DNA of 64,000 bases from Paracyclopina nana (taxonomy: Eukaryota; Arthropoda; Copepoda; Cyclopoida; Cyclopettidae): assembly GCA_019096065.1 (NCBI GenBank), contig JAGUCH010000003.1, forward strand, positions 9,734,001-9,798,000. The letters run 5' to 3'. A program made the translations under genes and the position numbers. Every line of letters begins with the position of its first letter. Positions within the stretch are counted from its first letter, which is position 1. Shown here in pieces: positions 2,306 through 59,110 of this stretch. Below the pieces are notes generated by a model. That model saw only the letters and a program-made list of their open reading frames with translations, was not told the origin of the DNA and searched no databases.

Positions 2306-2685
2306 TAATGCTCTATTCATCTGTATGATATACAACGTTTTTCCTTGGATGAAAACGAAAGTCAGCACCATAATGACGCCATTTTACTTTTTGTCGTAAG
2401 ATACATATTTTTGGCAACGTATTCAACGAAATTTTGAAAGTAAAGAGCCTCCATTTCCATCAACCAATTTCAGTTTCAGTTTCTCAAACTCAAAGTGAAT
2501 CCAAATGAAGAAAATATTCGTACCATGATTTTAATTAAAAAGACTCATTAAAAGTCACTTTACTTTTTTCCCATCGGAGCTAGCTAATGAATACATTTTT
2601 AGCGGTTTTTGCCCATTTCGGGGACAAAAGTAGGTTTTATGCTATATTTAGTTCATTAAAAGGGAAGCAGATGAAAGAGTGAGCT
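2306..2685 (+). repeat. Family A hairpin element, probably complete but diverged
   Basis: The left end resembles the family terminus (TAATGCTCTATTCATCTG) and the right end is GCAGATGAAAGAGTGAGC. Internal marks are GTAAGATACATATTTTTGG near 2396 and a degenerate CAGTTTCTCAAACT hairpin near 2477. Ends are less certain than in younger copies. Confidence 0.5.
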
Positions 2686-2990
2686 GGTGTATTGGCGACT
2701 CGCGTGGTATGGCAAAGAAGAAAAAAGAAGAAGAGATGGAGGCTGCATTCGAAAGCGTTGGCTAGGAAAAGTGCTTTCTTTGTTTTACTTTGACCAGTCT
2801 TTGGAGGAAAAAGGTCCCTCTAGGGGGTTAATGATGATGATCGCCTCCAGAGCATTTTCTTTTAAAAGTCACTTTGTTCCCCATTCATGCCAAAAATCGT
2901 TTTTTGCTTCGCCTCCAAAGAAGGACCTGATCCTCTTTGCCCTTTTGGCACTCACAATTGCTGAATTTTACTTGCTCTCCAAAATGCACT

Positions 2991-3154
2991 CAATGCGATG
3001 TTCATCTAAGCCTGAAATACAAATTTTGACGTTTAGCAACATTTCTATAGATAAAACGTCCGATTCCAGTTAAATGTGCCGACAACACAATTGATGACAA
3101 TTAAGGGAGTGATTTTGGAAGTGTGATATTCATCAATAGATGAACACCCCATTG
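2991..3154. repeat. Family A element, short 164-bp copy
   Basis: Terminal inverted repeats are CAATGCGATGTTCATCT at 2991 and AGATGAACACCCCATTG ending at 3154. The central hairpin is missing, so this looks like an internally deleted copy. Non-coding. Confidence 0.6.
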
Positions 3155-4254
3155 AAGCATCCGCCATTGTAGTCAAGGCTGTAGCAGGAAAACTTTGGCC
3201 AATTTTGCAAATAGCTCAGCTAGCTTTTGGCAAGAGGGGAAAATAGTTCAGGTGGAAATTGATGTGAATTTGCATTGCAATTGGCAAATCTTGACTCCTA
3301 CGTATACTACTACATATAGAGCATCTGAACGCAACCTGAAGTGAGATGTAGCAGTTGATTAATAATTGATTGGAAAAAGTTTGTATTTACAGTGATGAGT
3401 TGCTCTTTTACTTTAGCATAGCAGAATACATATATAGAATACAAAAGGCAGCTTGCAGCTGCAGTGCTTACATCTGGTCAAGTGCATATTACAGCAAAGA
3501 GGTCACATTTATGCAAGGCTAATGCCAAGACCATGCTGTATTAGTGCTATGTATACATAGGGTGTAGTATGACATTATGATAATCAAGATTGAATGGCTA
3601 ATTTGCATGGTGGTTGGTCACCCCAACAATAGTACTTCATAGCAGCTATACACAAGAATACAAATGAATACAGGATATAAGCAACAATTTGGGCCTTCAG
3701 TCCTTCCTTAGCCACCACCACAGCTGAGATGTAGGCTGCGATAATTGGATTACACGACGTCAGATGTGACAGTTTTGGAAAGGAAAGGATTTTTTTCAAC
3801 CACAAGAAAGAGCTCTTTGAGTTAGCAGCAGGAGCAGAACGAAGGGGGATTTTGTGTATTTCTCCTATGAAGTAGTGCAAGGAGAAAGCCCTGGCTCCTC
3901 CAAGTTGTAAATGAAATTTCTCACAACATCACCTTTTTGCTTGGATACATCATTTTTCCTCATTGGCTGGAAAATGATGATGGACAGCTTGGCCAAAAAT
4001 AAAGTTTGCAAATTGCAGCAGTATTTTGTAGGCAAAATGATCAATATTTAGCGGAGTTAGGTGAGCGATGTATTCATGTCAACGAATACATTTTTTTTTC
4101 ACAACGCAACCCCGCAATAAAAATCATGGCTTTTTGACATCTTTCAAGTCTGGGGGTGCGTGACTTCAAAAAGGAGCTACTATGAGTAGGCTTCCTTTTT
4201 CAGTTAAAGCCCCCTACATAGAAAAGGTATCAAAAAGCCACGATTTGTTTTGAG
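3155..4254. other. Intergenic, no gene recognised
   Basis: AT-rich DNA with chance open frames only. No RNA gene or clear repeat ends were seen. Confidence 0.35.
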
Positions 4255-4408
4255 GGGAAAGTCTTCAAGTCAAATTTATTTTCAATGAGACTGGATTGTT
4301 GCCGTCCAATGTTATTTTCAGTCAGTCCAACTGAAACTGCTTTTTCAAAGTACGATACAGCTGATGACGTCAAGATTTGGAATAATCAGTAGATGAACAG
4401 AGCATATG
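4255..4408 (+). repeat. Family A element, right half
   Basis: Carries AATGAGACTGGATTG, the hairpin TTTTCAGTCAGTCCAACTGA (from about 4317), a GACGTCAAGATTT block and a right terminus GTAGATGAACAGAGCAT ending near 4408. No matching left terminus was found. Confidence 0.5.
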
Positions 4409-4811
4409 CGAGACTAAATGATCATGGTAGAAGTAAGTTTTGAGAAGATGATGCATCGCAGTTCAGACAAGCGAGTCAATGCTGCAGTCAGTTTTTTTAG
4501 CCATGGCTTATGTATCCACTCCATATTGGCCTTTTTGTATTGTAGTACTATATACATAGCATTAGAGATGGATCATACGGGGTCCAGCTTTGTTTTCTTC
4601 CTAGTACAGCAGCACATCTTTTTTTGACGCAAACTGCTCCGGATCAAGGTCAAAAGTCATCATCATTCTTTGCTAATATGGAACAAGCCCTTTTGTGTTT
4701 GCTGCTTGTGATGGGCTATAGGGAAAGATGATACAAACTTCTACACGTCGGTGCTTGCTTACGATAAAGTTACCCTTGGATAACCAACTCCAAGTAGGAG
4801 CTACTTTATCC

Positions 4812-5118
4812 TATGTGCTGTTCATCTGCATATGCTATTTATTATTATTACAATATTGCTTTTACCGCATTCTGATGTAAGATACAGTAATATTAAGTTT
4901 AGTTCAATGTGTGAGCATATGGTGTTAATCCAAGAAAATTTTTATACAGTATTTCCATCAAGACAATTTTAATTGCTTAAAAGCTGTTAGATAAAAAAGT
5001 TTTAAAACAAATGTATTCAAATCAAATAAAGCCTTATAATGAGACTCAGGGTCTTTCAGTCTCCCAAAACTAAAATACTTTCTCATTTTGAGCTATTTAG
5101 AATGTTCAACGCTCCATT
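4812..5118 (+). repeat. Family A element, nearly complete
   Basis: The left terminus TATGTGCTGTTCATCTGC is at 4812. Inside are GATGTAAGATACAG, ATTCAAATCAAAT and TAATGAGACTC. The hairpin arm TTTCAGTCTCC near 5055 is followed by a decayed partner. The right end GTTCAACGCTCCATT is degenerate. Confidence 0.55.
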
Positions 5119-7641: not shown

Positions 7642-7752
7642 TCAGGTTTTGCAAAAAATTTTATGAAACGGTTGCGTTACGCTTTTTTGTATATTCTTGT
7701 TACAAGAAACCTGTTTAAATAGAGGTATTAAATCAGGATTAAATCAGGTTCA
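7642..7752 (+). repeat. Internal direct repeat, copy 2
   Basis: Second copy of the 6901-7021 segment, placed just inside the right terminus of the element. Differences are scattered substitutions and a short deletion. Confidence 0.75.
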
Positions 7753-8488: not shown

Positions 8489-8979
8489 CCCAACCAGACA
8501 AACGGTCCGTATTTTCTCGGTCGTTTCTCCATTTCGAAATTTTTTTTAAGATTTTTAAAAAAATTATATCAAATTATTAATTATTATAGTTGTCGACTAC
8601 AGAATATCATATTTAGAAATCAATATAATCAATATCTTTCAAGATATGATTTTTTAAAAATTGTCGTTTCACTCAATTTTGACCAATATATAATTTTCTT
8701 AAGATTTTATTTTTTCTTGTTTTAATGTCATCCCAGATGACAGCAAAGTGTGAATGAAGATGAAAATCATTATTTTTTTTTAAAATTAATGATTTTTACA
8801 CTTAGTATTTTTTCTGTATTTAATTAGTACTTTTGTGTGTAAATGCACTTGTACTTCTCTTTTATTTTTTTCACTTTTTCCCTCTTTGTTAACCCTATAC
8901 AATTCCATTATTGAAATCAGTATTTATTGAATATAACATACATTTATATATTAGTACTATTTCTTACTACCAATATAAT

Positions 8980-9133
8980 AGCCCGGTTCCAACATGGTAA
9001 ATCAGCATAGTCAAGAGACGTAACTTGACTTTTTAGCATAGTCAGGTCACAGCTAGCTCCCGCGCTCAGCTCGACCTGACTTAACTGGTTTACCGCACTG
9101 CACTATGCTGATATCCCGTGTTGAAACCGGGCT
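8980..9133. repeat. Nested 154-bp MITE with 6-bp target duplication
   Basis: Termini are AGCCCGGTTCCAACA and TGTTGAAACCGGGCT, one mismatch in 15. TATAAT flanks both sides (8974-8979 and 9134-9139). Subterminal TCAGCATAGT motifs are also inverted. It is GC-richer than its AT-rich host, indicating later insertion. Confidence 0.7.
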
Positions 9134-9143
9134 TATAATTAGT

Positions 9144-9872
9144 CTGTATTTTATCCGTCCGGAATGCTAAGTATATGCAATTACTCAGTCAGTATTAATG
9201 CTGTCATTTCACTTAGAGGGCACTACATAAGGTCGGTTTGCTAGATCGGTATGAATGCCATATCCGACTGTGCTCTCTTTCTGTAGCGCATCAAAAAGTG
9301 CCTAGAAAATTCGCTGTATTTTATCCGTCCATAATGCCTAGTATATGCAATTACTCAGTCAGTATTAATGCTGTCATTTCACTTAGAGGGCACTACATAA
9401 GGTCGGTTTGCTAGATCGGTATGAATGCCATATCCGACTGTGCTCTCTTTCTGTAGCGCATCAAAAAGTGCCTAGAAAATTCGCTGTATTTTATCCGTCC
9501 ATAATGCCTAGTATATCCAATTCCTCAGTCAGTATTAATGCTGTAATTTCACTTAGAGGGCACTACAAAAGGTCGGTTTGCTAGATCGGTATGAATGCCA
9601 TATCCGACTGTGCTCTCTTTCTGTAGCGCATCAAAAAGTGCCTAGAAAATTCGCTGTATTTTATCCGTCCATAATGCCTAGTATATCCAATTCCTCAGTC
9701 AGTATTAATGCTGTCATTTCACTTAGAGGGCACTACATAAGGTCGGTTTGCTAGATCGGTATGAATGCCATATCCGACTGTGCTCTCTTTCTGTAGCGCA
9801 TCAAAAAGCGCATAGAAAATTCACTGTATTTTATCCGTCCAGAATGCCTAGTATATCCAATTACTTAGTCTG
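9144..9872 (+). repeat. 170-bp tandem repeat, 4.3 copies
   Basis: Copies begin with CTGTATTTTATCCGTCC at 9144, 9314, 9484, 9654 and 9824, an exact 170-bp period. The last copy is partial. Copies differ by only a few substitutions, so the array is young or homogenised. No long frame runs through it. Confidence 0.9.
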
Positions 9873-10330
9873 TTCATTTAAATCTAACTTAGTAAACAGT
9901 TCAGAGATGGCTCTGCTTGCAATTCAATAATTAGTGAAATTGTTCTCACCAATAACTTTTAATGGTTTTAAGATTTCAAAAATCATCATTAATAGATGTT
10001 GTTTAGAACAATATGAAAATTGAGTTAGTAAGTATCATGCTTCTTTTTTTATACTAAAACTGAGATTTTTAGAATATTTCAATATTTTATTACATGTACT
10101 GCAATCACTTTAGTCCACTCTATTTTTTCCTAATCAAAACTTTTAATGTCTAACGACTCATATATGAAATGGGTCATTAGAGTGGAGTGAGCCTGCAAAT
10201 TTCAGGCTCACTTAAAAATTCAAAACATGATGTAACATAGTTTTTTTCAGGATTTAAATGCATAGTATATTGTAAATTAGTTGTGAATTAAAATCAGTCT
10301 TATATCCCCCTTAAACAAGAAGTATAAAAT
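9868..10330 (+). repeat. Segment homologous to 7014-7480
   Basis: Both segments contain AGATGGCTCTGCTTGCAATT, GAGATTTTTAGAATATTTCA and TTTCAGGCTCACTT in the same order and spacing. This is a shared internal part of the two elements, in direct orientation. Confidence 0.8.
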
Positions 10331-10999: not shown

Positions 11000-13699
11000 T
11001 GGTAAAATGTGAAGGTTACCATTATGCCACAATATTCAATGTTCACAATAATTGATACTAATGGTGAAATTAATTATGGGGGAAAAAAGTCCAGATGCCA
11101 ACTGGTATACACATCCTATTTTCTACAGTACAATGGCCAATTGTAATTGGTTATTATGCCACAGAAATACCATATTAATCATGGTTATATTGCTATGACG
11201 GTGTGCTGTTGCTAAAGTAGGAAAGGGCCATTTTAATTAGGCTACAGCAACAACATGGTGGTCACGAAACGTAAAACTAGCAATACATATCAACTACAAA
11301 TAGTATGCAAAAGTGGCTTAGTGCCAGGTCAGCTCTAGTTTTGAATTTAAGCTCATTACAATGGGATTAGTTAGGAATCCTATAGCTTTTCATATATACT
11401 ATAAGTAGTGAGCACTTGAGCCTGTCTTTCCACATGAAGAAGATATACTAGCATGCATGGTTATTCTTTTAATAAAAGAAGTAGCTATACAGCTTTCCAT
11501 CTTCGGAAGGATTTGTCCTGCCATTTCCTGCAGAAAGTACTTTTATTATCAGAAAAGCAAAAGGAGATAGAATAACCACGTGGTTTTGTTTACGTTTCTT
11601 CTGTTGACGCTTTTTAGCTTCGCTTCGGAACTTTCTGCACTTGTCGCAACCTTTTAATGTAGTCAACCATGAATTATCAATTTTGCTTAGCTTCCTTACC
11701 TAATTTTTTGTACAATTTGGTTTAATTTGATTTGAAACAGAAATAAGGTGATAGAGCATTTTTTGTTCTTTTCTCAGAGATTTCTTTTGTGACTTTAGTT
11801 GATGAAGATACAAATATGTCAAGACCCAGCTCCCCTAGGGACATTTTCAGTTCCACTATAATACAAAGAGAAGACAAGGAGAGTAAGGCCTCTTTATTAT
11901 TATGAGATTAAGCTTAATGTCGTTTGTGTATTTCTGAGAGTCAATGCTTTAACATAAGTGGAGCTTCAAGAGCTCTGAATTTGCTTGGATTTCGACCCCA
12001 TTCCTAATTCTCTGAATACAAACAGAGAATGTAGTGTATTTCTTGGCTGAGCAGCAGTAAATGTTCAGTGTTGTGAGAACTCTGACTATATGGTTTAATT
12101 GTCCCTTGTGTGTGTGTGCATAATCATAAAAAAAGCGTAGAACTCGGAAACTAAACCGAGAATTGCTTTACATTCCATGTATTAAAGGCAGCTGGGAGAA
12201 AATTCAAAGTGGGACAGAAAAAATTGAATTATCTGGAGAAAAGGTCAAAAATAGTGCTTTTTCTTTCTATTCCACAGGCATGATGTGAAGTCAATTGAAG
12301 ATGAAAAAAAAGACTGCTGACAAAAAGGACATAGAAGTGTGGCCTTTTTTGCATGGGAGCAACTCCCACTGTGTTAGCTCCTTTAACTGCAGCCTTCTTC
12401 TTCCAAAGGATGATGATGCCAAGGCCACAGAGAAGAGAAGAAGTGAAAAAGAGCAATGATATTTACCAGTGATTGATCCACCATTGAAAAAGTGTCATGC
12501 CAACATCATCAGCTGAAGAGGATCCTGAAGAAGAAGAAGAACAAAATGTGATGGTTTCTAGTTTTTTCCCCCTTATCTTTTGAGGCGTGCACAAATTGCA
12601 ATGACACTCTTCTTCCAATAGATTTGCATTTTTCTAACCCAGCCAAGCCAGCAGGGAAAATTGAAAAGTATGTGGAGAAAAAACAGAGAGTTCCATTGTT
12701 TGTGTGGACAACAAGAAGCTCAGGCTGTATTTTGGCTGTATTTGGTGGCATCTCACATACCCTGCTGTAGCATAGTAGTAATGGCATAAAGCTTTCACAA
12801 AAATGATATGCTGATGTAAAAGCACATATACACAAGCAGGGACAATGCATTTATAACATTTGTCAAGTCTTATACTTTCACCAAAAGAGAAAGATCCATT
12901 CTTCCCCATTCAGATTACTTTCTATTACTACACTCCATTTATAAAATTGAATCAAAGTTGGCTTTCAGAAACTGAAAGTGGACAAATTCTTTCTTAGCAT
13001 AGCCAATATTCCAATTGGCTTGTTTAAGGAGCTTTTTCTGACTATTCTGGACTTTTGGTCCACCCCCCAAAAAAAAAAAAAAATGGTCCACTTGACTTGC
13101 ACTTTCATTTGGCAGAAAACTATAAAGATGGCAAAATGTAATAATGTGTTTGCATGATGCCACTACAACTACTAAAATACAAGCCCACATTGGACTAGGA
13201 GGGAACCACATCTCTCTCCCACTTTATGAGCACAACCACACAATTTATTTTTTAAAAGCTCCCAATCAGGCTCAAATTGGCCCAATGCTCTGAATAAAAT
13301 GTATGTTTGAATACAGGGATTTTATAACCATTTAGTCCCCAGTGTGCTATGCAAGATTTTATGTAGTTTGTGGTCTCCATGGCTTTTGGTCTTAGCTGCT
13401 ATCATAAAGTTTTTGATGAACATCGTAATTTCCTTTCTGTAGCTCCAGCAGAGAGTTTAGGTCAAAATGTGGGTTGCTCAGCAAATGAATACTTTTTTAT
13501 GCCAAACACTATCACACCCTAACCTAGATAACTAGGTTTTTCTTTTGTCTCATAAGAGAGAGAGGTAGGAGTGAAGCACTATAAATTTCTATCAAACCTT
13601 TTAGAAATTCGTCTTGGATCTAAAAGCTTTTGAACGAAAAAGTTTGGACCAGGACTCTTTTCATCTGTTTGCTTTATTGAAACCGTTGAAAGTAGGCAA
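11000..13699. other. Intergenic upstream of the Ly-6-like gene
   Basis: No gene was recognised. Points seen: a palindromic AACCACGTGGTT at about 11574-11585, a hairpin TTTCAGAAACTGAAA at 12963-12977 that may be a relic of repeat family A, and an A-run at about 13068-13083. Short frames at 12229-13211 on the minus strand show no domain features. Confidence 0.4.
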
Positions 13700-13773
13700 G
13701 GCGCCGTGGCTTAGTTGGTTAAAGCGCCTGTCTAGTAAACAGGAGATCGTGGGTTCGAATCCCGCCGGGGCCT
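13700..13773 (+). tRNA. tRNA-Thr (anticodon AGU)
   Basis: A 74-nt cloverleaf. Acceptor arm GGCGCCG pairs with CGGGGCC, discriminator U73. The anticodon loop CTAGTAA puts AGT at positions 34-36. The T arm is GTGGG-TTCGAAT-CCCGC with an intact B box GGTTCGAATCC. A T7 run right after the gene (13775 on) is a Pol III terminator. The acceptor stem has a G4-G69 mismatch, shared with the identical copy at 36544-36617. The gene lies about 370 bp upstream of the Ly-6-like start codon on the same strand. Confidence 0.95.
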
Positions 13774-13963
13774 ATTTTTTTCTCCTTAACTCCTTGAACT
13801 AAAAAAAAAATTGCTTCAGAGGAGAAGCTAGGAATAGATAGATGAGCACGTCCTTGATGAAGAAAGTACTAGCAACCATCAAGTGTGTAAGAAAAGCAAA
13901 AGTGGATGGCAAAAAGGCAAAGAAGAAGACGAAGGAGACGACGAGGGAGAAGAAGGAAGAGTC

Positions 13964-17200: not shown

Positions 17201-20200
17201 GATGAGGATATCCATGATTTATAGTGGCTAGCTCACTGCTTCAGAGCTTGATCAAGATCTTTTTAGTGTAATTGAATAATTCATTATGGGCATTAGTAAG
17301 TTGAGTAGTGTATTGTGCCAGAAGTGGGATTCGAGAACTTTTGAGCTATTGTCTTCAGATTGAGCTATTATACCTCAATTAGTGCATTGATCATCTGCAT
17401 ATTGTATCAAAATAATGCCGTAAGAATACATTTTTTGTCCATTTTCAGTTTAAGGTACTGAATTTTAATTGCTGAGGTGACAGCTGAGTCTCATTATGCC
17501 AGAGTGATTGGCCTTGAGAGCATGAGTAGACCAAAAAATTGTATCGAAGGGCTATTTTGAAAATGTCGATAAATTTCTCTCTTGGATGAACACCTTAAAA
17601 GGGGTTTCGGTATATTCCACTAGTACTCGTCATCAGTTGGCGACTGGTGGAGTTGGCCAAACACTCAGATCTCGTTCAAGGCATTCTCAAAGCATGAATA
17701 TGTTATGAGCCAACAGCAGCACTGAGAGCTTATCCTGCAAAGCCACACTTCAGTTCAACTTAAATATCTACGAGCAAGCCTGATAGGAAAGCATTCATTC
17801 CACTACTTGGTGGTTGTGCCAATAAAATTGATTGATACCCACTTCTGCCATGAAGTGTGGCACTTCATTTGATTACTTAGCACTCAGAATGAAGCTGCTA
17901 TGAAAGTGCTTCGACAATTTTGGCCTTTACAAAAAATTGGCAAATTAATGTAAAAAAGCGTTGTGGTAACCTTGGTAATAAACTAATGTGGTGTTAAGCT
18001 TTGAAATCAGAGCTGAATCGACATTTCGGCTTTTGTGGTAGGATACAATTTTTTGACCGAATACAGATCTTGAAACAAATAGCTCAAAACTGAGACTCGA
18101 TGATCATCCTTCATATTTGTTTTCAGTTTCCAAAGCTGAAACTCAACACAATTGTAAATTGTTGCTTTCGTTAAGAGTTTTCTTAGACAAAGCTTGAATA
18201 GCGATTGTGAAAGCATATTGCTAAAGTTCTTCCTGATTAATGATTTTGATGAAAAGAAAAAGTTGTAGTAGTAGTTATGCCAGTATTTTGGCATCATCAA
18301 TCTTTTACCCAATGAGAGCCATAGCTTTGCTTATTAATACTAAGGTCACACACATAGCAGTTAGTGGGCCTTCCTAGTACATCTTGATGATGATAATGAT
18401 GTCATCCTCTTGAAATGGCCTCAGTGCTGAGGACACAACCCATTAGGGGATTACTCTAAATGGCCTCCATAACTTCATTTACAGATAATTGTTCTTAACA
18501 CCATGTGGCCCATTCGGGCCCAATTGCATGCAGCCTTCTTGTAGAATGTTAAAGTCAGCTAGAAAAGCCTGGTGCCATTAATCACCCTGATTTTTCCTCT
18601 GTATTATGCGACGTTCATTAAAGCAGTCATGGACAATCTTGACGCAAGCCAACATAACACATTTGTGTTGAATTTCAGCTTGAGAAACTGAAAGCAAACA
18701 TGAGGGAAAGTCACTCAGTCTCATTAATCACTGATTTGTTTCGAGAAATGTATTCGGTCAAAAAATTGTGCCTTACGACAAAAACCAAAAGTTCGTCAAA
18801 TCCTTTTTTATGCAATTTATTTTCAATATTTTCTGTGTTAAAGCTGTTAGACAGTGACCAAGTTCTCTCAAGCTTGGATGACAGCTAACCTTGGCTATTT
18901 ATGTGTATGTAATTTGCAGCTGAGCTGGAGAAAGTTTCCATTGAAAATGGGCTCATGTTCAGTGCGCAAATTTGCTTGCTACAAAAGTTCTTTGCTGCAA
19001 GGTGGGCTTTCTTGACATGGGCAAAGGGCTTTTTAGTATTGTGAAGAATATGCTTAGGACATGACCGTAAAAGGTACAGTGGAAGAAGAAGGACTCTTTC
19101 CGCCATCGTGCCAAACAAAGCATCATCCTCTGAGTAGGTTCTGGTATGATGATCATGCAGATTGCATCTCTCAGTGAATAATGCTTTCCTTGCCCAGATC
19201 ATGGCAAAAGATACCAAAACTCTTCAGCTATCTCTATTTGACCACCAATTGAGTCCTCTCAGTTTCTAAAATTAAATTAAGTTTGCTCTCCAAAATTCTA
19301 AAAAAATCCACTGTGTACTGAGGAAGAAAAATTATTTTGGTGGCACTGCTAGTATGAAGCAAGGATGATTTCCCACGTCCTGTAGCAATAAATGTATCCG
19401 GAAATGAATGACCATTGCTTTTTTGATATAATGCCCATTAACTCATCCTTCTATAGTATATTACTTTTTGCGTCATTTTTCCAGTTTCCGGGGGCTTACA
19501 GTGCTACACAGACGTCGAAGGCAAGACAATCGTCACGTGCAACGAGTTGGAGGGCTTCAAGACTTGTTTCGTCAAATACAACGACAGTAAGTAAAATACA
19601 GCATAACTTTGAGCGGTGTTCACCTGCCACAAAATATGTTTCCAACCTTTTGGGTTCGTTTTTGGCATTTCAAAAATTGTGCTTACTTTGGCTTGGCAGA
19701 TGAGCAGGGCACATAATCTGCTCATATTTGTCCACGTCCTTTTTACTTTACTCATTTCAAAGTTAAATGGGAGCCAATAAGTCAGGCAGGCTTAGAAAAT
19801 GGCTAGTAAAAGGGAGAAGGGGCTGGCTGTCACACTCGGAGTAGGACGACACATTTTCTGGTCTTGTATGATTTAGCGAAGGACATTAACTTTGCTAAAT
19901 GTGTCAGAAAAAAGAGCCAAGAAACTAGAAAGAATAGGGGCTGAAAAGTGACACTCATTATGACATTTTCCATGGGCAAAATATTCCAAATGGAATTATT
20001 GCAAAAAAGTAGTGAAAAGAGAGTTGTGATTTTCCAATCCCCATCACATCTCAGCTAGAGAGTAAATAAAGAATGTGGATAGTGGTAGTTATTAGTCTTC
20101 CATGTGGCGTTCATCTGCTTTAGTTGGTTGTATTATAATTTTACTGTATTTTACTATATTTTACATTACTATATTTTTACTTTTAGTAGGCCTTTAAGTC

Positions 20201-23200
20201 AAATTATAAGAGTATCAGGGTCGAATAATTTAGATACATTTTTATGGAACTAATAAGAAAGTAATAAGACTCAATTCAATTGTAGCTAATTCAGTTTCCA
20301 AAACTGGAAGTGAACTCAAGAGCAAACCATTTGCCTATGTCTATATATCTCCTTCAGCTCAGCAGATGAACGGGGCATTATAAAGCCATATAATTTTTAT
20401 GACGGTGGTGGCAATCTGCAGGCAGAGGAACGCTGCAGCCATCATTCATTCATTGCTTTTGCAAGCCCAAGCCAAAGTAGAACAACTTAATCAGAGGGCC
20501 AATTGTGTATAAGGCCATTGGAAGGAGCCAACTAGGATACCCATATGCTCTGAATATGTTAAGGGCCAAAATTGGCCATTCCAGGTATGCACCGAGTTAA
20601 TATTGGATCCAAATGTGTGACAAACTTGGTGTGGCCATTAACTTAATCCCTCTGGAGGGAAATCTTAGCCTAAAATCAGCTAAGCTTGAAATGGTTTCGC
20701 CCATGAGCGATATATACCACCATTTTTGTTGCCTTGCAATTTTTTACCATGGTATATGCTCTGTAGTGTACCAGCAGCAGCGCGGTCATCATTAGCAGTG
20801 AAGCACGCTTCCCAGTCCAGCCTACGATGATTGCCCATGCACGAGTAATTCACAAAATAGTACAACAACAAAATCACGAGCACACCTAGAGTCTGACCCA
20901 TAAAAAGTGAAACTCTAGAGTCTGACCCATAGAAAGTGAAACTCAAGAGTCTGACCCATAAAAAGTGAAACTCTAGAGGCTGACCCATAAAAAGTGAAAC
21001 TCTAGAGTCTGACCCATAAAAAGTGAAACTCTTCTGTAAATTGAGTCTGATTCATGGAAACATGAATTTAGGTTGGCTTGTAGGCAATAGGCCGAAATTC
21101 AGGACTAAAAATGTGATATGTTCTGATTTGCATGCATCAGACTCTAGAACGAGTGAGGAGAAAATGTCTTCATTTTTGGCTGCTTCTTTGGTGTGATGAT
21201 GAATTTCCTGCATAGATGGTTTTTTCAGCTTTAAGCTTTTTCCAGAGAATCGAGGGGAAAAGCACTTGAAAGGGCTCAATGAAGAGAACTAGATAAGCAA
21301 TTCAAAGGCCTCAACTTGTGATATTATTAAAGATGATGATGGTGAAAGTCTTCAACTTTGCCGGAGTGAAAGCGTATTGATGGACCTTGAATGTAGTACT
21401 ATAGGCCTGCTTATTTCACATCCACAGCAGCTTATACTAATTACCAACCTTTACCAGTGCCAAAATCTTGGCTATGGAGCCCTGTTCCCCTTGGCAAGAA
21501 CAACATGCTTGCTTGGCATGAAAATGCCTAGATTCGTACCCAAGAAGGACATTTTTTCATCAAAGCCTTTCTTGGATATATTCCTCCTTTTCTAAAAAGC
21601 TACATAAATGCGGTAAAAGAGAAAGCCCTAGTGCTTTTCAATTGTACGACATAGTTTTCATCTTTTGAAAGAATAAAATGCATTTTTATTTTTTCGCAAA
21701 TTCCAGAGGGTTCAAATCAAATTGCACAATAATGATACTCGATTGCCAACTCTCCAATTTGCTTTCAGTCTCCAAGACTGAAACTGAATAAGAGTCCCTT
21801 TCGTCAAGACTTTTGCTCTGTCAACAGTACACTGAAGTATTTGAAATACAGTGCTGTATCGAGGGAGGGTGGTATACATAGCATCTTTGATCATGAGTCA
21901 TTGGTCTGCGTCTCAAGATCAAATGGCTGGTCTTTTTCTGCATGCTTTTGATGTGGATGATGCACACTTCGTTGCTAGAGCTTTATATAAGTGAATTCAG
22001 CCAGTGAAGCTTCAGGAATTCGTCTAGTGTAGGAATAGTAGTTGACTGGCTGGAAAATGGCGAACATTTTCTTAGCAGCATGCAGTAGTCAATTCCTTTC
22101 AAAATTCATTTCCCCAAAGGCATGGCTGTATAGTAGAGTAGTAGTAGCTTACAAGCTAGGCAGTCAAGTGTAGTAGTGGCAATACACATATACTAGCCTC
22201 GTAGCATGCGTAGAAGAGCACCAAAAGAGCAATATTGTGTGAGAATACCACTACTGCACTCTCATATCAACACTTCTCTCATAAAGTAGACGCGAGGTCG
22301 AGAATGCTGATTTCTGATTTTGCATGGCCATGGCCATGGCGGCGGTAAACAAAGCTTGCTCTGCATCAAGCTCCAAATTCAATAATCTTTCGGGCTGCTG
22401 TAGGCTTTCTATTTAATCAGATTGAAATTTTCACAATTCACGTCATAGGAATACATTTTAACTGACTAATTTCAGTTTGAGGGCCTGAAAGCAAAATTGG
22501 AAGATCACATTTGACTCTCATTAGTTTGAAATTTGACATTTTTCCAAAAAATGCTTCGAAGGGCAAAAAAGGTGAAAGCTAAGTTGTCGTCAAGAATTGA
22601 CCTGCACATGGTTTCATGGCCCACGAAAGCACTTTTTTGGGCACATTTATGCTGGAAGAAGTTCTACGTACCTCATGTAGTTATAATGACTTGACAGAAA
22701 GTTATGGAAATGCATAGAGTTCCCCCCAAAACTTGGTTTTTAACTTGACCCCAAGTTGGGCCATTGAAAATCTGTGCTGCTTGTTGGCAGTGTTACCAGC
22801 AGCAGCCTTCTTCTACCCATGTAGTTATAGTTTGAGGAGTTGTGGAAGTGAGGCACAAATTGTTATTATTATGGCTTTTGGTGGGAAAACTTTCCCTTGC
22901 TAGCTAGCTTGCTAGTTGCCAACTTTCAGCATCGGAACCATACAAGAAGAAGCCAGCTTTGCCATAGAAGAGTAGTGCTATTCCTTGCAGAAATGTCTTC
23001 TTTTCCAAATGAGGGCAAAAATTGGCATGTTGCAATATTATGGGAAAGTTGCACTTTGCAGCCACCAAGTTTATTACTGGATAATTTCGTGATGGTGGTG
23101 CTTGTTTTCCATTATGGCAAACCGACTAGCTTTTTTGTGTAAAATGCCGACATTCATTCAAATTGAGTGTGCTATTTGCACTTTCGGATACTGAAAGCAA

Positions 23201-38676: not shown

Positions 38677-38926
38677 TTGATGCCCCGTTCATCTACTCAC
38701 CTCATTTCAAAACACTTTGCTAACTATTTTCAATTTGACGACATTTGTATTTAGTTGTAAGATACAATTTTTGGCTTACATTAGATTTCAAGTCAAATCA
38801 CTCTTTAATGAGACTCATTTGAAATCCCTGAATGTGGAATTCAGTCCTTGAAACTGATTATTGAATAGAATATTTTGCTTAACTTGTTCTTAACTGTGTT
38901 CTTATTGGTAGATGACCAGGGCATAA
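38677..38926 (+). repeat. Family A hairpin element, complete copy (250 bp)
   Basis: Termini TTGATGCCCCGTTCATCTAC and GTAGATGACCAGGGCATAA. Contains GTTGTAAGATACAATTTTTG, TTTCAAGTCAAATCAC, TAATGAGACTC and the hairpin TTCAGTCCTTGAAACTGA at 38840. Confidence 0.75.
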
Positions 38927-41239: not shown

Positions 41240-41400
41240 GATGAAAATAAATATTTTACATTACCGTTTGATTTTCAGTCAGGGATACTGAAAATAAAAT
41301 TGAGCTATCGCAATCAAGTCTCATTTGCAACTAATTTGATTCGAATACACTCATGTGCCAAAAAATGTAGCAAAAATAAAAATTCCGTCAAATTGTACTT
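41240..41400 (-). repeat. Family A element, partial
   Basis: Hairpin TTTTCAGTCAGGGATACTGA at 41272, CAAGTCTCATTTG, GATTCGAATACAC and CCAAAAAATGTAGC in reverse family order. A 169-residue open frame spans this copy and is therefore probably spurious. Confidence 0.55.
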
Positions 41401-42299: not shown

Positions 42300-42470
42300 C
42301 AAGTATTTTGACGATGCTTGAATTTCTTTAAATAAGATACAATTTTTGGCAAAGCCATGAATTCAAATCAAATTTGTCTTTAAAGAGACTTGGCTGTACT
42401 CATTCAATTTTGTTTTCAGTTTCGAGAGCTGAAATTGATGTAATTTTTTTTTCGAATTGAACTTTTATTT
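42300..42470 (+). repeat. Family A element, partial
   Basis: AATAAGATACAATTTTTGG, ATTCAAATCAAATTTG, AAAGAGACTTGG and the hairpin TTTTCAGTTTCGAGAGCTGA at 42414. Confidence 0.6.
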
Positions 42471-44604: not shown

Positions 44605-44898
44605 AGGTGTTCATCTGCAAACTCCAACATGGATTATCCTGACGTTAAAAAAATTCAACTGTTGGTTTAATTTCAGTCATCAATACTGAAACCAAAAATG
44701 AAAGTTTACAATCTAGCAAGCTATTTGGTTTCAAAGCATTGATTTGCCAAAAAATGTATTTCACGTCAAACAACTGGAAACATTTTATGTATTTTGCATA
44801 GCTGGTGTTAATTTGAAAAAGTAGGTTTGTGGTAAAAAAATGTATCTTACGACAAAGCCAAAAGTGTCGTCAAAATAAAGTAGATGAACGCCACATTA
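44605..44898 (-). repeat. Family A hairpin element, complete copy (294 bp)
   Basis: Termini AGGTGTTCATCTGC and GTAGATGAACGCCACATTA. Hairpin TTTCAGTCATCAATACTGAA at 44671, followed by AAAAAATGTATTTCACGTC, a duplicated AAAAAATGTATCTTACGAC and GTGTCGTCAAAATAAAG. Confidence 0.75.
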
Positions 44899-45169: not shown

Positions 45170-45330
45170 CGTTGTAAGCGTCTCACTTCTTTGCTTATTT
45201 TCAGCCTTGCAAACTGAAAATGAAGCCAAGAGGAGGCAAACAAGTCTCATTAGCAAGTGATTTGATTTGAAAACATTGATTTGCCAAAAAAATGTATCTT
45301 ACGTCAAACATCTTTGATGTATTTACGTAA
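45170..45330 (-). repeat. Family A element, partial
   Basis: Hairpin TTTTCAGCCTTGCAAACTGA at 45199, CAAGTCTCATTAGC, GATTTGATTTGAAAAC and AAAAAAATGTATCTTACGTC in reverse order. Confidence 0.6.
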
Positions 45331-46645: not shown

Positions 46646-46914
46646 CTGAAAAGAGAAAAAAGGCCATTAGCTCATAATACTATCCTTGATTTATGGACAG
46701 ATGACTACTACTACTACTACTCTATAATGCTACAGCTGAGAGGGTTCAGTCTGCTCTGGTGTTGTGGCTTTGTTGTGATTAATGGCCTTTTGAAAAACTG
46801 CTAAAAGCTTCCCCCCTGCATGAGGAAAAAGTGTGCTAAATTGAGGCCTAACTCGTGAGTAGTTCATTCACTAGTTTTCACTGTCTATATCTGCTGATCC
46901 TCTCAGTTTATCGA
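46646..46914. other. Sequence upstream of the paralog exon (minus-strand intron)
   Basis: Presumed start of the intron on the minus strand. Contains CTACTACTACTACT runs near 46707. No second exon seen. Confidence 0.4.
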
Positions 46915-47080
46915 TGTTTTAGCTTTTGTCGTAAGATACATTTTTTTGGCAAAACAATGTATTCGAAACAAATCAATAAGAAATGAAACTCAATTGCCTT
47001 CTTCCAACTTTGTTTCAGTTCTCCAAACTGAAATTGAACTCAAGTGTGAATACCTTAAGTCAAGATTTTTATTTTAGTTA
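46915..47080 (+). repeat. Family A element, partial
   Basis: TTGTCGTAAGATACATTTTT, TGTATTCGAAACAAATC, AAATGAAACTCAATTG and hairpin TTTCAGTTCTCCAAACTGAA at 47013. Confidence 0.6.
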
Positions 47081-47389: not shown

Positions 47390-47580
47390 TGGTTCATCTA
47401 ATAGCAAGCCAAATACAATTGTCGCATAAGATACATTTCCCAAGTACATTTTCAGTTTTTGGAACTGAATGCCAAACAGGAAGAAGATGATCGAGTCACA
47501 TTACTTTATGATTTGACTTGATCACATGAGTACGTCAAAAAATTGTATCTTATGACAAAAATGCAAAAGTCGTTAAATAG
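47390..47580 (-). repeat. Family A element, mixed copy
   Basis: Left TGGTTCATCTAATAG, GCATAAGATACATTTCCC, hairpin TTTTCAGTTTTTGGAACTGA at 47450, GAGTCACATTAC and AAAAAATTGTATCTTATGAC. Confidence 0.55.
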
Positions 47581-48884: not shown

Positions 48885-49050
48885 CTTTCACTTTTTCTCA
48901 TATGTTTTTTTGACGAACTTGTGTTTTCATTTCAAATGACAAACTAATGAGACTCGATTGTCCTCTTTCAATTTTGTTTTCAGTTTCCATAACTGAAATT
49001 GATCTCAAAAGTAAAGTGTTTCCTCACGTCAAGCTTTCGCTTTTGCAAAA
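48885..49050 (+). repeat. Family A element, good internal consensus
   Basis: TTTCAAATGACAAACTAATG, ATGAGACTCGATTGTCC, then TTCAATTTTG leading into the hairpin TTTTCAGTTTCCATAACTGA at 48977 and AAATTGATCTCAAAAG. This copy best shows the extended stem TCAATTT/AAATTGA. Confidence 0.65.
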
Positions 49051-50319: not shown

Positions 50320-50490
50320 CAAAATACAACATAGTATCTTTGATTGACGTAAGGAAGTATTTTACGCTTGGGATGAATTTCAGTTTCACAAACTGAAAAG
50401 CAAATTGTAGGAATACAATTGCGTCTCATTCCCAAAGCATTTGATTTGCAAGCGTTGTTTGGCCAAAAATGCGTATCTTACAACAGACTC
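50320..50490 (-). repeat. Family A element, partial
   Basis: Hairpin TTTCAGTTTCACAAACTGAA at 50378, GCGTCTCATTCCC, GATTTGCAAGCG and AAAAATGCGTATCTTACAAC. Confidence 0.6.
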
Positions 50491-51389: not shown

Positions 51390-51545
51390 TTTTCTTGGGA
51401 AATACGTTTTTGACTTGACAACTCATTTAAATCAATGATATCATGAAATCAATTCAATGATACTTGATTGTGTTCTTTCAATTACATTTTCAGTTTTTCA
51501 GACTGAAATTGATTGACAGATGTAAAATATACTTGCATACGTCAA
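51390..51545 (+). repeat. Family A element, partial
   Basis: GACTTGACAACTCATTTAAA, ATGATACTTGATTGTG and hairpin TTTTCAGTTTTTCAGACTGA at 51487. Confidence 0.5.
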
Positions 51546-54172: not shown

Positions 54173-54390
54173 GATGAGGTGTTCATCTATTACAAGTTTC
54201 AATCAATTTGACCGATACTTTCCTTTTAGTTGTAAGATACAATTTTTGACCTAAATATATGCATTTACATCCAGCGGAATTCCAATGAGAATCAATAGTC
54301 AACAATCACTTTTGTTTTCAGAATCTGAAACTGAATTTTAGAAAGGAAGCAAGAAATTGCACTGAGTCAAGATTGATATTTTTGCAACTG
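54173..54390 (+). repeat. Family A element, left terminus present
   Basis: GATGAGGTGTTCATCTAT, GTTGTAAGATACAATTTTTG, CAATGAGAATCAATAG and hairpin TTTTCAGAATCTGAAACTGA at 54316. Confidence 0.55.
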
Positions 54391-54974: not shown

Positions 54975-55090
54975 CTTGCAATTTCAGTTTGAGTTACTGA
55001 AAACAAAGTTGGAAGTAGGCATCATTTCTCTAAGATTTTACTTGAGTTTATGATACTTTCAAAAAAATGTATCTTAAATCAGAAAACTAA
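54975..55090 (-). repeat. Family A element, partial
   Basis: Hairpin TTTCAGTTTGAGTTACTGAA at 54982 and AAAAAAATGTATCTTAAATC in reverse order. Confidence 0.55.
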
Positions 55091-55660: not shown

Positions 55661-57189
55661 ATTACTTGATTGGCCTTCACCCTTATTTTGTTGAGAATTG
55701 GTGGTCATTCTCTGGGAGGTTCCGATATTCAATCTTGTTGATTGCTTGTTTTCGCAAGGATGAGGACGTGAAACAATCAATTTTCCTTGAATACTGGAGA
55801 ATACAGGAGAAAGAAGACATGACTGGCCAATCTATTAAGTCACCATTTATCTCAACCATACGCACTACTGGAGAATTGGTGACCATTAGATGCAATGGAA
55901 AGCCCTTCCTTCCTCATACAGCATTACCACTTCTTGAAAGCAGTGCTCAAGAACACTTTTTTATTGTGTAATTAATTGCGTGAAAGCTTACCATCATGAA
56001 ATGGGCATTTCATAGCTATGTTTGGCCTGGCTGTAATAAAGTGAAGCATATACTAGTTCTCCGTACAGAGAAAGTCCCAAGATGAATGAGTCTTCATTGG
56101 GACTGATTACTGCCATTACAACCACCATTCCCCGCATTAAGACTGCTACATTCTTGCAAGACCTCCTTTATGTCTCTCTGCTATGCACTTTGTGCCAGCT
56201 AGCCTTGAATCTCCCAGAAAATATTGTCATTTATTGCCACCTTAATTTATCTCTTTGGTTCGCAAATGGGATAATTTTATACCTGCTTTGTAAAATGGCT
56301 TTGAATGTACCAAGGGAATGTATTCATTCTAGAATACATTCAAATTGGAAAAAAATACCTATCTTTGGAAATAATAGTATTTTTCTTCATCTAATCAATT
56401 TCAGTCACTGGAAACAAAATAGAAAGCAACAAATAATGTCTTACAAGCTTACTTTAAGTTAAAATCTAAGGAGATAATATAAAAAATTGATTCCATTATA
56501 CAAAATGAGAGGCTAATGTTGTAGTATTTATGCCAGGATAAGCTAGAAAGGTGCTTTTGACCTTCGTTTGAACGACTTGCTACATCTCATATTTAGGCTG
56601 GAAGCCATTAGAGGATTGCACCTTGTGAAGAAAGCCCAAGAGGAGCTTCGGGACCAATGGCAGTTGTCTTAATGAGCTAATGAAGTGCTTTCACTTTTTA
56701 TAGCAGCGTGATAATAAAAGAAGCTTGGGCCAGCAGCAGCAGCAGCTTTTATTTCACAAGAAAAGGGGGGTCAAAAGTCCAATCGCGATGGGCCACTTTT
56801 GTGAAAGTTGGGCACACATTCGTAATACTTTTGGCATCGACAGCAGCAGCCTCAGCTTTCCCTGGAAAATGGCTTTGAGGCTACCACGTTCGTGACTCGA
56901 ATTTAAGAATTGCTTTCACGATTGCAGGTTACGACTACACACTTGCTGTAGTATTAGTAGACCACCCACATCAATTGTTGTTGTGGCATTCTTGCCTGCT
57001 ATTGAAAAGCAGTCACAATAGCATGCATTTTACATTTTAAGCACATTAGATACCTTTAGAAAGCAATTAGCTCTTCAGAGGATTCTACAGAACTGATAAC
57101 TAGTGAGTAGCTGAATTAGGTATTCATCGAAGAGATATTATGCTGAATAAATCAAAATGTGAAGCAGAAATGTCAATTTCACATCACAC
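55661..57189. other. No gene recognised
   Basis: A weak hairpin relic (TTTCAGTCACTGGAAAC) lies at about 56399. A CAG run is at about 56730-56746. The frames 55600-55971 and 56082-56462 show no domain features. Confidence 0.35.
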
Positions 57190-57250
57190 CGAATCACCAT
57201 GAAAATGTATCTTACGTCAAAAATTAAAATGTCGCCAAAACAAGGAGGTA
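57190..57250 (-). repeat. Family A fragment
   Basis: AAAATGTATCTTACGTC and AAAATGTCGCCAAAACAAGG only. Confidence 0.4.
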
Positions 57251-58854
57251 AGCTTTACAATTAGCCCCTTAAAATGATTCTACTGTCCATGGAAATGAAA
57301 CCTTTATGTATGTATAAATATAGGAGATGTGGTGGTCTGGTAACAGTAGGAAGTAGGTTAATCTGCACACACTACGATTGGCAGATACAGAAGAGTTTAC
57401 GAACAGCTGGAGGCTATCGAAGATGAACTCTTGCAGTACATTCTATGCACAAAAAGGCTGGCTGTCCAATTAAACAAAAAACGACTTCCCATCAGGCTCA
57501 ACTCAGTTATATACACTTTGAATACATAGGATGTAAAATACAGATGAAAATTAAACTAATTGAGGCCATATGAAGCAGTTATGATAAAGATCTACCGGCC
57601 CCAATTACATATACCCATTCCCTTTAAAAACTTCTTCTTATAGAAGGGAGATCTAATTTTAGATGGTAAATAAAAAAAAGTCGTGAATGGAGGAGGGCAA
57701 TTTTTTCCTGCTTCTGTTTGCACATACCAAAGATGCGCAGGGGCAAATTGTATTGGCAAAGCTTGTTCAAAGCCCTAAAACGACGATGCTGCTTGTGTCC
57801 CAAAGAGCCTTATACATGTATTTAGATCAATCATTGGCCCATAACCTCTAAGGATACATTTTTGGCCTTAGCTCAGGAATACATCTACGCGTAATGCTCA
57901 GAGTGACCTTAAAATTGAGTAAAATCCTGGCAAGTGTGAAGGATGCCAATAAAAAGCTCAATGGTCCTGAACTGGGTACAAAATACTCCTTAGAAGGCCA
58001 AAAGGCTGTTCAAATGCAAATTGAAGGCTGCTGCGCCTACTATGAAAAAGGGGAGCCCAAAAGGCCATTCTTTCGAATTGACTTTCAAGGATAGTTCTCG
58101 ATCTTGGTTAACCTTTTCCTAATTAGAGAGACTTTCCACATCAGTCAAATGGAAAAATTATTCCACAGGCTTGAAAGTGCCTAATTTGAGTAGGAACTTT
58201 CCCTCTTGATTCATTAAAAGTTAAGCACACTTTTCAGCTACTGCATAATCAAATATTGCAATGCAGAAAAATTATGCCAAAAGTTGGGCTCAACTTTTGC
58301 TTACTTGGCCAGCCAAAATACTAAGTGTGCAAGGCATGAATAAGACCTTCTCTTATAGCTTTTTGCACTTAAAAGGCTCTTTTGGCAGGGCTCTGGCCAA
58401 AAAGGCCAGGAATGGTGGGCCTTTTAGTGAGTTCTGTGTGGTGGCCTTTTTATTGTCTGGAATTGGCACCATCATCAAGAGCAAGAGCTAATGACAACAT
58501 TGGTAAAAAGAAGACTCCAATCAAGACTTGATCATCCAATGCTGATCCAACATTAATTCTGCTGCATCCACCAGAGGATTGACTCCCAAACTTGCCAATA
58601 AGAAGACCAAAGGTCACTGGGTCATATTTGTACTGGCTGCCACATCAAGCCCCTAGGCCATATAATAAAGACCAAGGCCACAAGTAATCATTACTAATAT
58701 TAAAACTTAGGGAAACTTATTAATAGCCAGCTGCAGAGCATTGCCTGAGGCCAAAATTAACAATTGGATGTATCTGAGGATTGAAAGCTGAGTATTTTAA
58801 TTTTTCAATTACTTTGGTCAAAATGAAGCACTTCCAGTATCTGCTTAATTAGGT
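57251..58854. other. No gene recognised
   Basis: Short frames (57894-58094, 58261-58491) have no recognised domain. No RNA gene seen. Confidence 0.35.
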
Positions 58855-59110
58855 GAATGTGGAGATCATCTATATGAAAAGTATCTGGTAAAAGCTTGAA
58901 AAATCTTGACGACATTGGGTGTTTAACAACAGGGTTCAATTTCAGTATCGACAACTGAAAACAAAACAGAGTGAAACCAAACGAGTCTCATTAGCTTGCC
59001 ATTTGATTTGAAACCATCAAAGAGTCAAAAAAATGTATCATACATTGCTAACCAAAACATCGTCAAGACGTACTAGGCTATTGCTAAGAGCAGATGAGCA
59101 CTAGAGTGTG
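58855..59110 (-). repeat. Family A hairpin element, complete copy (256 bp)
   Basis: Termini GAATGTGGAGATCATCTA and GCAGATGAGCACTAGAGTG. Hairpin TTTCAGTATCGACAACTGAA at 58940, CGAGTCTCATTAGC, ATTTGATTTGAAACC and AAAAAAATGTATCATAC. Confidence 0.7.

Follow-up and report, generated by a model that had tools for sequence, protein, structure and literature searches.

Hundreds of old copies of one short element family, here called family A, crowd a few chromosome-end domains, and mutation has altered these copies along almost their whole length but spared a single 21-base palindrome, a pattern suggesting that the cell has retained them as sites for protein binding. The explanation favoured here, with a probability of about one half, is that PHIS-type MITE copies have been selectively kept in the chromosome-end domains as co-opted sites for a dimeric protein. 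When binding sites carried by transposons have been co-opted, this is usually demonstrated copy by copy near genes. The two most unusual features, confinement to a small number of chromosome-end domains and palindrome arms that stay conserved amid largely scrambled bases, lay outside the view of an initial sequence-only reading of the window, i.e. the whole 64-kb stretch of DNA analysed.

Family A units in the window

The sequence-only reading proposed a single family of hairpin-bearing elements, and one oriented family was indeed recovered. With 22 of the 32 earlier-listed copies as input, an nhmmer profile detected 36 units in the window that score 20 bits or more, and 31 of the 32 listed centres lie inside such units, while the centre at 29488 gave only a weak profile match (12.8 bits). 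With up to three mismatches, TTTCAGTTTNNNAAACTGAAA, GTAAGATACATTTTT and TAATGAGACTCGATTG were found 30, 42 and 20 times in the window, compared to 0.17, 5.9 and 0.62 times in dinucleotide shuffles, and GTTCATCTGC with up to one mismatch was found 27 times, compared to 5.0. The copies align outside the hairpin, with word order and spacing constant in nearly all earlier-listed copies and about 200 bp around the palindrome conserved across the family, which argues for one family rather than independent motifs. A local density above one per 1.5 kb was also confirmed, with 14 units within about 12.2 kb (17.4-29.6 kb). Copies do populate positions 2306..59110, the range first assigned to the family, but the family reaches far beyond it, the same profile detecting 102 units of at least 20 bits across the 258 kb of contig C3 examined. 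The features are listed below by window position and strand, with nhmmer scores in bits.

46907..47046, +, family A unit, top score; palindrome 47013-47033; 110.0 bits
27540..27679, +, family A unit; palindrome 27646-27666; 108.1 bits
47439..47578, -, family A unit; palindrome 47450-47470; 101.5 bits
18019..18154, +, family A unit; palindrome 18121-18141; 100.2 bits
18660..18801, -, family A unit; palindrome 18673-18693; 100.0 bits
45186..45311, -, family A unit; palindrome 45199-45219; 97.3 bits
58932..59067, -, family A unit; palindrome 58940-58960; 96.1 bits
50366..50498, -, family A unit; palindrome 50378-50398; 95.2 bits
48874..49012, +, family A unit; palindrome 48978-48998; 95.1 bits
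23905..24030, +, family A unit; palindrome 23998-24018; 94.4 bits
42307..42440, +, family A unit; palindrome 42414-42434; 87.6 bits
38732..38858, +, family A unit; GTTCATCTAC left end 38687-38696 (end match); 83.0 bits
41264..41394, -, family A unit; palindrome 41273-41293; 82.9 bits
17430..17574, -, family A unit; palindrome 17443-17463; 80.5 bits
21688..21794, +, family A unit; palindrome 21763-21783; 79.7 bits
25251..25368, -, family A unit; palindrome 25258-25278; 79.4 bits
54206..54349, +, family A unit; palindrome 54316-54336; 76.2 bits
24691..24802, +, family A unit; palindrome 24780-24800; 71.2 bits
22462..22594, -, family A unit; palindrome 22470-22490; 70.2 bits
4225..4342, +, family A unit; palindrome 4316-4336; right end 4389-4398 (end match); 68.4 bits
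51385..51520, +, family A unit; palindrome 51488-51508; 59.4 bits
2374..2506, +, family A unit; palindrome 2474-2494; 58.7 bits
52478..52609, +, family A unit; 56.9 bits
44662..44773, -, family A unit; palindrome 44671-44691; GTTCATCTRC ends 44609-44618 and 44880-44889; 53.9 bits
54973..55090, -, family A unit; palindrome 54982-55002; 52.4 bits
48274..48347, +, partial family A unit; 45.2 bits
20109..20371, +, family A copy of 263 bp; exact GTTCATCTGC at both ends; profile match 20226-20322; palindrome 20289-20309; 37.9 bits
55519..55639, +, family A unit; 37.7 bits
6495..6595, -, family A unit; two GTTCATCT-type ends (205 bp); 37.5 bits
26757..26878, -, family A unit; exact GTTCATCTGC at 26683-26692; 36.1 bits
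23178..23281, -, family A unit; GCTCATCTGC end 23305-23314; 31.7 bits
53134..53189, -, partial family A unit; 30.9 bits
26043..26113, +, partial family A unit; palindrome 26089-26109; 30.0 bits
29532..29644, +, weak family A unit; 27.6 bits
45887..45971, +, weak family A unit; 27.1 bits
34382..34462, -, weak family A unit; 21.7 bits
29476..29496, no strand, palindrome-like site from the motif scan (earlier-listed centre 29488); weak profile match, 12.8 bits

A search of the plasmid collection gave no match, and Rfam gave two matches in the window, both tRNAs.

Element ends, origin and genomic distribution

With at most one mismatch, GTTCATCTRC was found to the left (-200..-100) of 22 of 108 units and inverted to the right (+50..+100) of 16 of 108, over a background of about 1 per 50-bp bin. 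The earlier description of a MITE with a terminal motif is supported as to a single MITE-like family, but the ends are retained by a minority of copies only, and the defining combination of a short, non-coding element with common terminal inverted repeats is found in a minority. Two-ended copies with at most three palindrome mismatches (n=22) are 188-292 bp long. In end-keeping copies, searched over 110-210 bp to the left and 35-75 bp to the right, the left end is 127-207 bp and the right end 38-70 bp away from the palindrome, and the hairpin that had been called central is therefore off-centre.

The left-end flanks of family A favour TNA (T at -9 in 20/29, A at -7 in 18/29). An exact target duplication is present in 2 of the 22 two-ended copies, and two of three bases are duplicated in five more, one of which has a family B left end. 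Family B, a related family in the window with similar ends, has TTA/TAA (TWA) target duplications, exact in 4 of 7 cases. Because of the inverted ends, the TNA flank preference, the TWA duplications of family B and the presence of DDE_Tnp_4 genes, the most likely origin of family A is a PIF/Harbinger-type (PHIS) MITE, and the shared ends, TNA flanks and related family B also support the assignment to a single MITE-like family. PIF/Harbinger and other PHIS elements are described as having short TIRs and inserting at AT-rich 3-bp targets, TWA or, in NuwaII, TNA (PMC4482050). DDE_Tnp_4 genes are present here (25 matches in the genome), and the TWA sites of family B fit the description. By contrast, the duplications of family A are mostly decayed, none of 10 DDE_Tnp_4 loci searched among the 25, with 1.5 kb on each side, is bracketed by family A ends as an autonomous partner would be, and an internal conserved palindrome is not among the PHIS features described in that account. 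The idea that a larger transposon carries the units as its long inverted ends was rejected, as convergent and divergent neighbours have no fixed spacing.

Exact palindromes number 392 genome-wide, compared to 2 for the control, and the motif is common to several contigs, with domains at both ends of some. In C3, no palindrome occurs before 9.43 Mb, and a dense run around the window follows. None of the 69 directional sites is farther than 2.13 Mb from a contig end, a zone containing 43% of the genome, and family A orientation is random (49 plus, 46 minus). Family B occurs along C1-C3, with its own enrichment in the C3 domain of approximately eightfold per Mb (14 of 36 among the C3 matches listed), so the clustering of family A is partly general. 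The telomere repeats in this genome are TTAGG, which makes the animal probably an arthropod.

Conserved palindrome and diverged surroundings

In the 21-base palindrome, TTTCAGT-N7-ACTGAAA, the arms are nearly fixed and the centre is variable and non-covarying, and in 88 of 90 cases exactly 9 nt separate TTTCAG from CTGAAA. The sequence-only reading regarded a hairpin as the conserved feature, but the inner pairs are at chance level (pairing in 76, 48, 42 and 26 of 88, compared to expected values of 76.0, 49.8, 42.9 and 30.4), and the compensatory stem changes of a structured RNA were absent from them. The conserved entity is the palindromic sequence with its fixed 7-bp gap, not base pairing.

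Across 76 exact palindromes, column identity is 0.68-0.74 in the words, 0.56 in N7, 0.42-0.48 between words and 0.36-0.39 in the outer flanks, and the internal motif exceeds the rest of the element in conservation among paralogous copies. GC shoulders are also seen around the units, and may merely reflect the absence of adjacent AT-rich units. Among 50 exact-AATGAGACTCGATTG sites (of 59 listed genome-wide), chosen blind to arm state, 27 match 13-14 of the 14 arm bases at the offset predicted for them; 36 match 10 or more and the other 14 fewer than 10, and arm loss is thus not rare. When copies are picked by the two left words the outcome is bimodal, the arms being mostly intact or gone; 18 of the 25 copies with 22-23 word matches have 13-14 of 14 arm bases, and 4 have at most 6. 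The word AATGAGACTCGATTG is itself lost in 15 of 72 exact palindromes, and arm identity is slightly lower in copies with the most diverged right side (0.90, compared to 0.96). Identity between words is 0.48 in end-keeping copies and 0.49 in copies without an end, an equality not predicted by simple insertion and decay.

Linkage between columns is sparse, with 32 of 4108 pairs at p<0.01 and few signs of subfamilies. In simulations involving two runs each and an assumed decay of 15%, one source per copy yielded 32 and 34 of approximately 5500 pairs at p<0.01, matching the data, whereas 5-40 sources yielded 77 to 1193 linked pairs and did not; column linkage is thus as expected if nearly every copy had a private lineage. 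The copies do depart from a perfect star: the spread of pairwise identities exceeds that of column shuffles (sd 0.0655 vs 0.0389), the 20 closest pairs have a mean identity of 0.72 vs 0.57 in the one-source-per-copy simulation, and two pairs on other contigs (L039, L043) are close local duplicates. Indel-free spacing was considered as proof of selection, an argument weakened since family B likewise has few gaps per substitution.

Explanations for copy retention and known parallels

Under the favoured explanation, the starting point would be a PHIS-type (PIF/Harbinger-like) MITE of approximately 190-290 bp with GTTCATCTRC inverted ends, and selection would retain those copies that had settled in a small number of chromosome-end domains. 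Each copy would supply a rigid composite site within approximately 95 bp, comprising a T-tract, TTCAAATCAAAT, AATGAGACTCGATTG, CTTTCAATTTTG and the palindrome, the last being the strongest part, with two fixed inverted half-sites and a 7-bp centre of any sequence, the form expected for a dimeric DNA-binding protein. Protein binding at the palindrome is what we infer from this form, and selection on individual copies from paralogous copies only. Hundreds of putative sites would make a domain-wide protein platform rather than separate gene promoters; the function of the chromosome-end domain is a guess, with candidate roles in organising chromatin, in silencing or in the handling of chromosomes at meiosis. 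The copies amount to a natural mutagenesis experiment, in which nearly all bases between words are randomised and the arms are not, and from which the required site would be directly readable. If binding occurs, a single protein with its motif would be enough to define the chromosome-end domains, and a selfish-DNA origin would be testable in a compact genome.

Neutral survival is a less probable but serious alternative, in which an ordinary old MITE persists in presumed gene-poor chromosome-end domains with slow DNA loss, the words and arms having been conserved in source elements for transposition and the resident copies decaying freely. The inverted ends and TNA flanks, the enrichment of family B in the same C3 domain, the random orientation and the excess variance in pairwise identity are all in keeping with it, as is the decay of the end words to about the same level as the other words. 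However, free decay with arm identity at 0.93-0.96 in arm-keeping copies would imply young copies, and youth is contradicted by the scarcity of ends noted above (22 of 108 on the left, 16 on the right). Alternative paired ends, sought for copies lacking GTTCATCTRC, were not found in 80 units: the two flanks of a unit resemble each other no more than flanks paired by shuffling do (mean 9.19 vs 9.23), and the absent linkage would need about as many source lineages as copies.

It is unlikely that the units are promoters or bodies of small non-coding RNA genes. At Ruby-motif piRNA loci in C. elegans, a composite oriented motif drives a short unique RNA, and family A resembles these in its rigid oriented composite of several words, its clustering in domains and the differences between copies outside the words. 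Against this, within the 250-320 bp examined there is no position-specific signal past approximately +60 or left of approximately -110, no Rfam match at E<=1 was obtained in 5 loci, and covariation is lacking. tRNA-like Pol III boxes were also rejected, as TTCAAATC, which we take to resemble a B box, is too near any A-box-like word. A hairpin transcript, whether a precursor of miRNA or siRNA or a structural RNA, with TTTCAGT/ACTGAAA as its functional stem is very improbable: a 7-bp stem could form in most copies, but with inner pairs at chance and an almost invariant outer stem, sequence rather than pairing has been kept, and no Rfam match to the units was obtained. An introner-like element, with GTAAGATACA ... 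TTTTGTTTTCAG as an intron of approximately 90 nt, is scarcely credible despite two splice-like ends at near-constant spacing in aligned copies, since copies occur in both orientations, nine window frames tested against Pfam gave no coding match, the CAG belongs to one palindrome arm whose opposite arm is equally conserved, and an intron would account neither for the word AATGAGACTCGATTG nor for the right side with TTACGTCAAG.

A non-exhaustive literature search found no description of this palindrome or array. For the preferred reading of co-opted protein-binding sites, the nearest parallel would be the CERP2/CELE2 MITEs of Caenorhabditis, described as carrying m1m2 motif pairs bound by HIM-17, a transposase-related protein (Carelli et al. 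2022, PMC9757741). In that description, a motif pair at limited spacing reached thousands of copies through transposition, the motifs are more conserved than neighbouring sequence, many copies lie in closed chromatin, and the co-opted copies are germline gene promoters with divergent or tandem m1m2 pairs (PMC9757741). The motif carried by family A is likewise more conserved than its surroundings, but it consists of one palindrome with a fixed 7-bp gap, crowded in chromosome-end domains.

A bolder proposal, which we consider doubtful, is that an old MITE family was co-opted wholesale, such that the chromosome-end domains would be hundreds of individually maintained palindromic protein-binding sites with a pairing-centre-like role. 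A selfish element would then have been recruited into the machinery of the chromosome, serving a whole chromosome region. In the meiotic pairing centres of C. elegans, HIM-8/ZIM motifs cluster near one chromosome end. Family A differs in having a single motif common to contigs and domains at both ends of some. It resembles them in its hundreds of dispersed short-motif copies in a domain near a chromosome end, and its location, as motif clusters near contig ends, fits such an array.

Units of family A and their palindrome

The sequence read comprised 258 kb of contig C3 (9,600,001-9,858,000, including the window at 9,734,001-9,798,000), 60 short stretches, eight contig ends and the loci returned by searches. 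The genome totals 92 Mb, and its ten contigs include nine with lengths between 6.3 and 17.8 Mb; repeats of TTAGG, the arthropod telomere unit, lie at four of the eight ends read, which makes an arthropod source probable. Each motif listed in the sequence-only reading is far more frequent in the window than the shuffled expectation, and 31 of its 32 proposed hairpin centres proved to be profile-supported units of the MITE-like family A. With a profile built from 22 listed copies and a threshold of at least 20 bits, the 258 kb yield 102 units, 36 of them inside the window, with strands mixed (49 plus and 46 minus among units of at least 25 bits). The best 60 of 84 flanked units have a constant order, namely TTTGACGA..., GTAAGATACATTTTTTG, TTCAAATCAAAT, TAATGAGACTCGATTG, CTTTCAATTTTG, the palindrome and ...TTACGTCAAGATTTT. 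Among the top 70 enriched 10-mers of the 258 kb, only those of family A reach at least 20 of the 2-kb bins, the others occupying at most nine. The closest unit-to-unit matches within the 258 kb are about 80-86% over 63-144 bp, and two pairs on other contigs (an inverted pair at locus L039 and neighbours at locus L043) are closer than any of these.

The site formerly called a hairpin is a palindrome, TTTCAGT-N7-ACTGAAA, conserved as sequence and not as structure. Among 104 units scoring 25 bits or more (from the 258 kb and loci L002, L003 and L005), 90 carry TTTCAG...CTGAAA with at most two mismatches in 12, and a gap of exactly 9 nt separates the halves in 88. This gap differs in sequence among units and lacks covariation, opposed bases pairing in 76, 48, 42 and 26 of the 88, versus 76.0, 49.8, 42.9 and 30.4 expected.

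Within the 258 kb, divergent neighbouring units are never less than 666 bp apart (n=30), convergent ones approach to 219 bp (n=31), and the left-side distance between neighbours exceeds what an end-to-end element length would need. At locus L071 (C7:6783961-6784630) the family A word AATGAGACTC is tandemly amplified (CATTAAGCAATGAGACTC...), and no more than 9 of the 14 palindrome bases are present where the palindrome would be expected.

Arm conservation and the level of proposed selection

Since the first copies had been selected by the hairpin, the arm test was repeated blind to it. Among 87 copies found by the left half of the profile, a short downstream search recovered all 12 arm bases in 42 and a single mismatch in 20, while shuffled flanks gave none below two mismatches. 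A second blind set, picked by two left words at fixed offsets (140 hits, versus 19 in reversed sequence), has arms that are mostly either 12-14/14 or chance-like. Of the 80 copies that match 20 or more of the 28 word bases, 52 have 13-14 of 14 arm bases and 13 have at most six, and most hits with 18-19 word bases (n=60) are chance-like. Once copies with fewer than 8 of 14 arm bases are excluded, 66 two-word copies remain, and their mean identity to the consensus reaches 0.93 in the arms, 0.83 in the selecting words, 0.58 in N7 and 0.51 on the right side. An exact 15-mer word lists 59 copies genome-wide, of which 50 were scored, on seven contigs and including three from the L071 array; the arms retain 13-14 of 14 bases in 27 of these, 10 or more in 36 and fewer than 10 in 14. 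Palindrome listings place an exact palindrome at the predicted position in six of the nine unscored copies, so their omission did not favour the result.

The reverse test started from 76 exact palindromes, part of them at loci retrieved through the word, and oriented them by a different word. Beside them AATGAGACTCGATTG is 0.75 identical and is lost in 15 of 72; where it can be recognised, its offset is unchanged in 47 of 48 cases; between-word columns are at 0.42-0.48, N7 at 0.56 and the outer background at 0.36-0.39.

Conservation of the words at the level of active transposon sources would leave subfamilies. In 68 ungapped units (out of 81 oriented, out of 109 palindrome sites), 32 of 4108 column pairs are associated at p<0.01, versus 41 expected. 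Simulations (two runs each, 15% decay assumed) gave 999-1193 associated pairs with five sources, 642-649 with 10, 258-282 with 20, 77-93 with 40 and 32-34 with one source per copy. This low linkage, matched by one source per copy, makes most divergence look private to each copy, with the arms held throughout these histories, which argues for selection on resident copies. Several observations cut against a simple version of this reading, whose main rival is that an old MITE left a neutral graveyard. Pairwise identity is more widely spread than in column shuffles (sd 0.0655 versus 0.0389) and the closest pairs are 0.72 identical versus 0.57 simulated, which means that the copies are of unequal age or partly related; between the words, copies retaining an end have diverged at least as much as end-less ones; arm identity is slightly lower in copies with the most divergent right side (0.90 versus 0.96); and arms or word are lost in about one-fifth to one-quarter of copies. 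The scarcity of indels in family A is weak evidence for selection once set against the related family B.

Origin and chromosome-end domains

A minority of family A copies have a left end GTTCATCTRC 127-207 bp from the palindrome, and a minority its inverted complement as a right end at 38-70 bp; the six bases that follow are TGYNNT, and the flanks beyond favour T.A. Family B, to whose ends those of family A are related, ends in GGCCCTGTTCACCTGC, with TAA or TTA duplications in four of seven copies, as in the following:
Window about 445-660: family B MITE, TIR GGCCCTGTTCACCTGC, TTA duplication

Duplications of PIF/Harbinger elements are given as TWA, and those of the NuwaII group as TNA, in PMC4482050. 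Family A most likely belongs to this superfamily as a MITE; its own duplications are exact in 2 of 22 two-ended copies with no more than three palindrome mismatches, and agree at two of three bases in five others, one of which carries a family B left end. The genome contains 25 matches to DDE_Tnp_4, the transposase domain, and no autonomous partner of family A was found among the 10 of these loci examined. At locus L058 (around C1:16.62 Mb), positions 2969-3346 hold a 140-bp inverted-repeat element with GTTCATCTAC ends, alongside both a copy of family B and a DDE_Tnp_4 match, not far from the C1-end domain.

Exact family A palindromes (392 genome-wide, versus 2 for the reversed pattern) are almost confined to chromosome-end domains. 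Among the 100 listed (up to C3:10.06 Mb), the five on C1 all lie beyond 16.70 of 17.77 Mb, four of the five on C2 lie at 0.90-1.12 Mb and one at 16.10, and C3 lacks them up to 9.43 Mb but carries a dense series thereafter. In a complete directional subset, all 69 sites lie no further than 2.13 Mb from a contig end, and C3:9.56-10.24 Mb accounts for 27. The exact 15-mer is similarly distributed apart from matches near C9:2.72-2.75 Mb, at C8:2.30 Mb and at two interior positions (C2, C6), the interior two lacking a palindrome where one is expected. CGTAAGATACATTTTT gives 88 matches at no more than one mismatch, versus 12 in the control, its interior matches being scattered and at about chance level. 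As an internal control, family B ends have 766 matches (385 + 381) at no more than one mismatch, and the 100 listed span the whole of C1, C2 and C3. The density of family B likewise rises in the C3 domain, about eightfold per Mb (14 of 36 C3 matches listed), so transposons in general gather there.

The best explanation appears to be that MITE copies were co-opted wholesale: they would have supplied a composite site whose palindrome would suit a putative dimeric DNA-binding protein, and copies within the chromosome-end domains would have been retained. Confinement to crowded domains may recall pairing centres. The nearest documented case, as portrayed in PMC9757741, is CERP2/CELE2 with HIM-17 in Caenorhabditis, from which family A differs by its fixed-gap palindrome and its confinement to crowded domains.

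Other features of the window

Additional features, by window position
8974-9953: tandem array of 170-bp units
13689-13787 and 36530-36628: two tRNA-Thr(AGT) genes in opposite orientation
19486-19590: short exon-like stretch between splice-like sites, Cys-containing frame LQCYTDVEG...TCFVKYND
20886-21031: 29-bp tandem repeat (CTAGAGTCTGACCCATAAAAAGTGAAACT)
33342-34084: tandem array of 106-bp units with GGTGGGCCTTCGGCCCAC-like inverted repeats
60167-61100: long array of 9-bp units, one frame of which encodes SEV/DEV-type repeats
61671-63999: uninterrupted frame of 630 codons ending in a CxxC/H-rich tail, then an overlapping frame

The exon-like stretch (34 aa), which has no match in Pfam, is reminiscent of Ly6/uPAR domains. 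The tRNA genes, 96% identical over 99 bp with flanks included, are a young duplicate or a tRNA-derived repeat. The frame overlapping the 630-codon one has a weak, below-cut-off match to a gag-type aspartyl protease, and the region is probably the start of a gag-pol retroelement extending past the window edge.
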